Position numbers and translations under genes: made by a program
The notes under the pieces: generated by a model
What the model saw: the letters and a program-made list of their open reading frames with translations, nothing else
What the model was told of the DNA's origin: nothing
The model's database searches: none
Shown here: positions 1-6,126 of the stretch, piece after piece
Layout of the letters: each line of letters starts with the position of its first letter
How positions within the stretch are numbered: position 1 is the stretch's first letter
Assembly: GCA_937967455.1 (NCBI GenBank)
Contig: CALCJK010000015.1
Location: 1-41,989 of the forward strand
Source of the DNA: an uncultured bacterium
GTDB lineage: Bacteria > Bacteroidota > Ignavibacteria > UBA10030 > BY39
Length of the DNA: 41,989 bases
Direction of reading: 5' to 3'

Positions 1-211
1 ACGTCTCTGGAGAGACGCGCGACGTGAAGCGATAGCGACAACCGAGGACGCGACAGAGGAGCAATTGCCGCTGTCGCCAGGCCGGTCAGACCAGCAGGCG
101 CGACCGCCTGGTTTTTTGTCGCCCGTCGCGGGCACCTTCACAACTGAATCGTGACGCGCAAGTCACTTCGGGCTCCCGGCGGGCGTCGCCGTCGTGCGAC
201 GCACCGCCCAC
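1..211. other. GC-rich sequence upstream of 16S, possibly chimeric
   Basis: Counting by hand, the first 180 bases are about 64% G+C, while the protein-coding part of the window is strongly AT-rich. I find no convincing coding frame. A small hairpin, CAGGCG (95-100) with CGCCTG (105-110), is followed by a T run (112-117) and resembles an intrinsic terminator. The stretch has no copy of the boxA-like element seen twice in the spacers, and no visible complement to the sequence just after 16S, although the 23S gene has a long flanking stem. It ends exactly at the universally conserved 16S 5' end, a common place for assemblies to join two organisms. A native leader of unusual composition cannot be excluded. 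Confidence 0.5.
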
Positions 212-1781
<1,570 letters not shown>

Positions 1782-1914: not shown

Positions 1915-2433
1915 ATGAAAAAGAATTCAATGTGTTCTTTGTGGTTTTTGTTAATTACTATGTTTTTGTACTCATTTAATTGTTCTGTAGGGCAAACGAC
2001 CAAAAATATAGAACCAGAAACTGCGATATTGAGTGTTTCAGAGCAACAAGAGGAAAACTTTAATAAATTTGTGCAATTTTTAGATAATCAAGAATCTTTA
2101 AAGTTGGTCGGTGAAAATCTGAAAAGTGTTTATGAAAAAGTTTTTGTTGCGATGAAACAAAATGATTATAAAGAATATATTATTAACAAAGAAATTTTGG
2201 ATAAAGAATTTGCTAATTTAAATGAAAACCAGAGAAACACAATATTGGAATTTTTTCATACACTAACTCCAATAGAATTAAATGAAAAAGAAATCCCGGC
2301 AAATTCTTGTAAAGTTAGTTGTTTATTTGGTTCATGTGAAATAACATGCCCAGATGGATCTAAACCCAAGTGTAGATGTGAGTGGTACGGTGCACCAGAT
2401 TGTGGTTGTGAACCGTTTAGTCTAAATAAATAA
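1915..2433 (+). CDS. Small secreted Cys-rich protein encoded inside the rRNA operon
   Basis: A 172-residue protein encoded between 16S and tRNA-Ile. I chose ATG 1915 because GGAGGG (1902-1907) is a good ribosome binding site 7 nt upstream; an in-frame TTG at 1900 lies before that site. The N-terminus (Lys-Lys, a hydrophobic stretch to about residue 24, then SVGQ) is a signal peptide, probably cleaved near the GQ. The middle (about 30-125) is charged and probably helical. The last ~40 residues hold eight cysteines spaced C-x3-C-x4-C-x3-C-x7-C-x-C-x7-C-x-C, suggesting a disulfide-bonded or metal-binding knot after export. I do not recognise the family and assign no function. Base composition is AT-rich like the rest of the genome. 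Its position implies transcription from the rRNA promoter unless it has its own. Confidence 0.8.
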   Translation: MKKNSMCSLWFLLITMFLYSFNCSVGQTTKNIEPETAILSVSEQQEENFNKFVQFLDNQESLKLVGENLKSVYEKVFVAMKQNDYKEYIINKEILDKEFANLNENQRNTILEFFHTLTPIELNEKEIPANSCKVSCLFGSCEITCPDGSKPKCRCEWYGAPDCGCEPFSLNK

Positions 2434-2865: not shown

Positions 2866-5889
<3,024 letters not shown>

Positions 5890-5999
5890 AGTATTTTTAT
5901 TGATCCCTTTCTTTCTTACCTGTTACACTACTCAAGCAGACTTTTGATAAGTTTGTTACTTGTGATTTTTTGACTCTCTTCTCATTTCGATTTTTAATT
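5890..5999 (+). other. Right half of the 23S processing stem and 23S-5S spacer
   Basis: This 110-nt spacer carries the complements of the pre-23S leader: to 5906 (helix 1 extension), 5932-5965 (long stem with 2785-2818) and 5975-5987 (13 bp with 2670-2682). No tRNA or ORF is present. Confidence 0.7.
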
Positions 6000-6115
<116 letters not shown>

Positions 6116-6126
6116 ATTTATTTTTT

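Follow-up and report, generated by a model that had tools for sequence, protein, structure and literature searches.

Position of the spacer gene in the rRNA operon

Ribosomal RNA operons are thought of as protein-free, selfish inserts aside. The locus studied here raises the question of whether an ORF found between a 16S rRNA gene and a tRNA-Ile gene is a real gene, and how it would be expressed from such a place. It lies in the window, by which we mean the whole stretch of 41,989 nt analysed, and the window is the first part of contig G000:C15 in an Ignavibacteria genome of 2.55 Mb in 39 contigs. All features described below are on the forward strand. The 16S (212-1775; RF00177), 23S (2866-5890) and 5S (6000-6116) rRNA genes were located with Rfam, the first two matching the full models, and tRNA-Ile(GAT) (2465-2539) and tRNA-Ala(TGC) (2572-2645) were found by both Rfam and ARAGORN. 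An ORF with an ATG start, encoding a 172-aa protein, occupies positions 1915-2433, which confirms the 172-codon gene that the first-pass annotation had placed between the 16S and tRNA-Ile. The 16S 3'-end pattern has a single match in this genome, and the assembly of its congener BY39 also contains only one such end, so each of the two probably has a single rRNA operon.

The length of the ORF exceeds what chance produced in our controls: among 5000 first-order random sequences with the composition of the spacer, read on either strand, the longest ORF had 153 codons (median of 53). Seven nucleotides ahead of the ATG at 1915 there is a Shine-Dalgarno-like GGAGGG (1902-1907), and to that extent the ribosome binding site reported earlier stands. 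Its description as a good one is weakened, since the hairpin holding this motif is weak and not above that of shuffled sequences, and the BY39 gene shows no clear counterpart at the same distance. A bias towards ribosomal-protein codon usage does not set even the ribosomal proteins apart in this genome, and codon usage is therefore uninformative on the expression of the gene.

Conservation and selection within the genus

The genus has a second species, represented by the MAG "Ignavibacteriae bacterium BY39" (G001), which encodes a 56%-identical protein in the same place and orientation, between 16S and tRNA-Ile on a 197 kb contig. The two species are 99% identical in the 16S and the start of the spacer and 83% in the next gene downstream (by its sequence, a regulator of the WYL type), against 56-58% in the spacer gene, which is thus fast-evolving. 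Neither copy contains a frameshift. The dN/dS between them is 0.19 (0.28/1.47), below 1 as the first-pass annotation had proposed to check among homologues, and the third codon position holds 81 of the 159 differences (p = 3.5e-6). The most constrained part is the cysteine-rich end, with a dN/dS of about 0.07. Judged by this comparison, together with its homologues and the AlphaFold2 model of its product, the spacer ORF is a real gene under purifying selection, kept at the same place in a second species.

Predicted protein

The protein has a hydrophobic N-terminus with a putative signal peptide at about residues 1-27, ending near SVGQ (judged by eye), followed by a helical domain (36-118) and an eight-cysteine beta domain (131-167). 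AlphaFold2 returned a confident two-domain prediction (mean pLDDT of 83.5), with helices in 43-114 and four strands in 131-167, and the four strands were kept when the C-terminal domain was modelled alone (pLDDT of 81). Eight cysteines are present in the window protein and seven in that of BY39, a set that would fit a disulfide-bonded exported domain; this is probably a small cysteine-rich protein that is exported.

No sequence match of weight was found in Pfam, NCBIfam or PDB for any family member searched. Foldseek gave no match at an E-value of 0.001, either with the whole model or with the cysteine domain alone. With VIA-align, the best match to the whole model was helical and middling (Z of 5.3), and the cysteine domain alone had none. 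The matches listed fall mostly on the helical part, so the protein may yet have a known fold. Two further secreted proteins, L120 (G233) and L126 (G118), carry a similar cysteine-rich motif first and the helical part second. The reversed-order candidate of G233 scored 10.6 bits, where the best of 400 shuffles reached 6.5, and both proteins are possible permuted relatives of the family, which we offer as a lead only.

Probable transcription and processing of the spacer

The genuine 16S leader lies at the end of another contig, C10; this contig and window positions 219-358 overlap perfectly. Upstream of it, a TTGACT-17-TATATT promoter followed by a boxA can be read by eye. From the 16S to the ATG, a scan for sigma-70-type sites found none, and no terminator was found between the spacer gene and tRNA-Ile. 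As tRNA-Ile, tRNA-Ala and the 23S are all downstream, RNA polymerase must cross the spacer gene.

Folding the C10 leader with the trailer places the 3' strand of the pre-16S leader-trailer helix, the RNase III processing stem, at 1811-1858, with GGCATACACACTAT (1845-1858) pairing with ATAGTGTGTATGGCC in the leader. In G353, a distant genome with a relative of the gene in its spacer (see below), the corresponding helix stops just before the insert. The helices of both lineages fold without including the gene, which in each case is therefore located between the processing helix and tRNA-Ile, a placement that harms neither. In E. coli, this processing helix is essential (PMC10250234).

A boxA-like element, TGTTCTTTTAA, is indeed present ahead of the gene at 1870-1880, as had been noted, and a second boxA, GTGTTCTTTGAAA, precedes the 23S at 2658-2670. 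The first cannot be credited to the gene: of the 46 gene-free spacers, 19 have a similar element, among them that of the sister genus G002, and the element is thus native to the spacer. In the G353 spacer, no boxA-like element was found.

We consider it rather probable that this is a functional gene in the sole rRNA operon, cotranscribed with the pre-rRNA and released by RNase III and RNase P, whose product is exported by Sec. The gene would have been inserted in the ancestor of the genus, into the internal spacer of its only rRNA operon, in the stretch outside both the pre-16S leader-trailer helix and tRNA-Ile. It would then be transcribed within the pre-rRNA from the rRNA promoter. A cut by RNase P at tRNA-Ile (2464/2465), a processing step carried over from E. 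coli, would create the 3' end of the mRNA. Its 5' side would come from cleavage of the pre-16S helix by RNase III around 1845-1858, a step also carried over from E. coli (PMC10250234). With no recognisable promoter or terminator separating the gene from the rRNA transcript, the two enzymes should release a single-gene mRNA of roughly 600 nt, so the rRNA transcript itself may be the source of the protein. Once translated, the pre-protein would be exported through Sec, and the mature protein, in the envelope or outside, would combine the helical domain with the eight-cysteine beta domain, the latter held by disulfide bonds. We infer co-transcription, processing, translation and export, as well as rRNA-level transcription as the reason for the place.

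It is unlikely, though deserving of serious weight, that the real gene has instead its own spacer promoter of a type outside our scan (for instance the Bacteroidota-type TTTG/TAnnTTTG), in which case its expression would not be tied to rRNA synthesis. Positions 1776-1914 are AT-rich with TTTG-like words, and the family genes outside rRNA operons must use other promoters. However, this interval has no sigma-70-like site, the window and BY39 differ by 13 nt in the distance from the processing arm to boxA, which would break a spaced promoter, and rRNA transcription passes through the gene regardless, to reach the tRNAs and the 23S. Co-transcription with the pre-rRNA can also be extended to a bolder proposal, which we regard as tentative and could well be wrong: a family of envelope proteins would be repeatedly placed in the rRNA operon, its output locked to rRNA synthesis and growth rate with the rRNA-processing enzymes serving as mRNA processors, and homologous recombination in the conserved rRNA flanks may transfer the gene between distantly related species.

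Distribution of the family and of spacer insertions

Within the class, 49 spacers could be read through from the 3' end of the 16S to tRNA-Ile. The gap measures 60-239 nt and lacks a gene in 46 of them, in agreement with the earlier expectation that such spacers are usually gene-free; the exceptions are the window (689 nt), BY39 (701 nt) and G353. The sister genus G002, from the same family as the window genome, has a gap of 130 nt, and a profile search throughout the order (98 genomes) recovered the spacer gene only in the two members of the window genus. In the sequence read after the 16S of L040, L041 and L042 (G115, G106 and G142, family f15) and L073 (G013), there is no tRNA or 23S, and the rRNA genes of these four genomes are possibly unlinked.

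A profile search of the whole class (391 genomes) found the protein family in 9 genomes, with E-values below 1e-32. Its members have a signal peptide, a helical domain and a C-terminal CxxxC/CxxxCP/KPKCxC/CE beta domain (alignment A2 and the model), except for the G140 copy, which lacks the N-terminus (L017:8841-9206) and precedes a tRNA-Arg by 62 nt on the same strand. Outside rRNA operons, members occupy ordinary genomic places. In G217 (L084), the family gene is upstream of rimP-nusA-infB, and in G221 (L085) it is beside rimP, these neighbors being recognised from translated ORFs without a profile. In both genomes a small secreted protein follows, with a signal peptide very similar to that of the family gene.

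The third gene-bearing spacer belongs to G353, of the distant family f30 (60% G+C), where a 300 kb contig has the family copy between the 16S (7530-9061 of L086) and tRNA-Ile (9691), followed by the 23S and 5S. Its closest relatives are in genus g79 (64% identity to G217), and only about 33% identity is shared with the window protein. In the family tree, the two spacer groups fall in separate clades with support of 95/96, in a tree of few sequences with some long branches. The congener G315 (16S identity of 96.5%) has an empty spacer of 74 nt, and with 45% G+C in a genome of 60%, the G353 gene looks like a recent arrival. As the G353 copy is of a different clade and the spacer of its congener is empty, the family has, on this phylogenetic evidence, entered the 16S/tRNA-Ile spacer at least twice. 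A second family copy in the same genome, L101 (G353:C2:131298-131621), is decayed, with a broken frame and a stop codon, and the neighboring gene is of the same type as in the congener G303.

Alternatively, the family could be mobile or often transferred, with the neighborhoods of RNA genes as safe harbors, the spacer bringing no benefit and the protein being made weakly or not at all. We find this quite improbable. The family is patchy in distribution, the G353 gene is low in G+C for its genome and resembles genus g79, a truncated copy stands before the tRNA-Arg of G140 and a decayed one persists in G353, and there is a precedent in S23p of Coxiella, whose decaying gene probably goes untranslated (PMC4990558). 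Against it, purifying selection acts across a deep split with both genes of the genus free of frameshifts, no recombinase gene lies between 16S and 23S, and no family member was found among the viral contigs, plasmids and phages searched. An ancestral placement in the class, lost or moved afterwards in nearly all lineages, would account for the common place in two distant lineages, but it is very improbable given the predominance of empty spacers, the atypical G+C of the G353 gene beside its empty congener, and the bootstrap trees, 0 of 200 of which united the spacer members in a single clade. An assembly or binning artefact is hardly conceivable: window positions 1-218 are a foreign, GC-rich chimeric end (67% vs 33%), but the arrangement recurs on the long contigs of two further genomes and the spacer flanks of the window and BY39 align closely.

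Comparison with known systems

With the gene as part of the pre-rRNA, every ribosome of the organism would derive from RNA in which a protein gene under selection is embedded, and a distant lineage has a relative of that gene at the corresponding position. If the gene is expressed, the output of a protein would here be naturally coupled to rRNA synthesis, with the rRNA spacer as a landing site for genes. It would also break the assumption, made in long-amplicon surveys, that nothing but tRNAs is found in 16S-23S spacers. In the literature on protein genes in bacterial 16S-23S spacers, where our search covered few subscription papers, we found no matching case.

Homing endonuclease genes in rRNA introns are protein genes cotranscribed with rRNA. 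The window gene differs in lying in a spacer, with neither an intron nor an endonuclease motif, and we ruled out this identity because no such Pfam profile was found and the gene is outside the full-model 16S and 23S. Borrelia, too, has a protein gene between 16S and 23S near tRNA-Ile: its long rrs-rrl spacer spans several kb and contains ordinary housekeeping genes. There, mag is next to trnI, with the mag-trnI spacer between them (PMC9229790). In the window, by contrast, one small gene stands among processing signals in an otherwise compact operon.

S23p is encoded in 23S intervening sequences of the rRNA operons of Coxiella, Leptospira and Xanthomonas, and resembles our case as a patchily distributed gene for a helical protein inside an rRNA operon, in RNA removed by RNase III (PMC4990558). 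A gene set in a 23S intervening sequence is ruled out here, since 1915-2433 is outside the 23S. Among the Pfam and NCBIfam matches listed for 8 family members there is no S23p, and the window protein has nothing at the cut-off. S23p is a four-helix protein whose gene lies in a 23S loop and is decaying in Coxiella, whereas the window gene, in the 16S/tRNA-Ile spacer, encodes a secreted-type, cysteine-rich protein and is under purifying selection. The first-pass annotation was thus too strong in suggesting a new kind of arrangement, as protein genes in rRNA operons are known from both S23p (PMC4990558) and Borrelia mag (PMC9229790). New here is the presence, between 16S and tRNA-Ile, of a selected gene whose product is of the secreted type, and the arrival of one family at this place at least twice.
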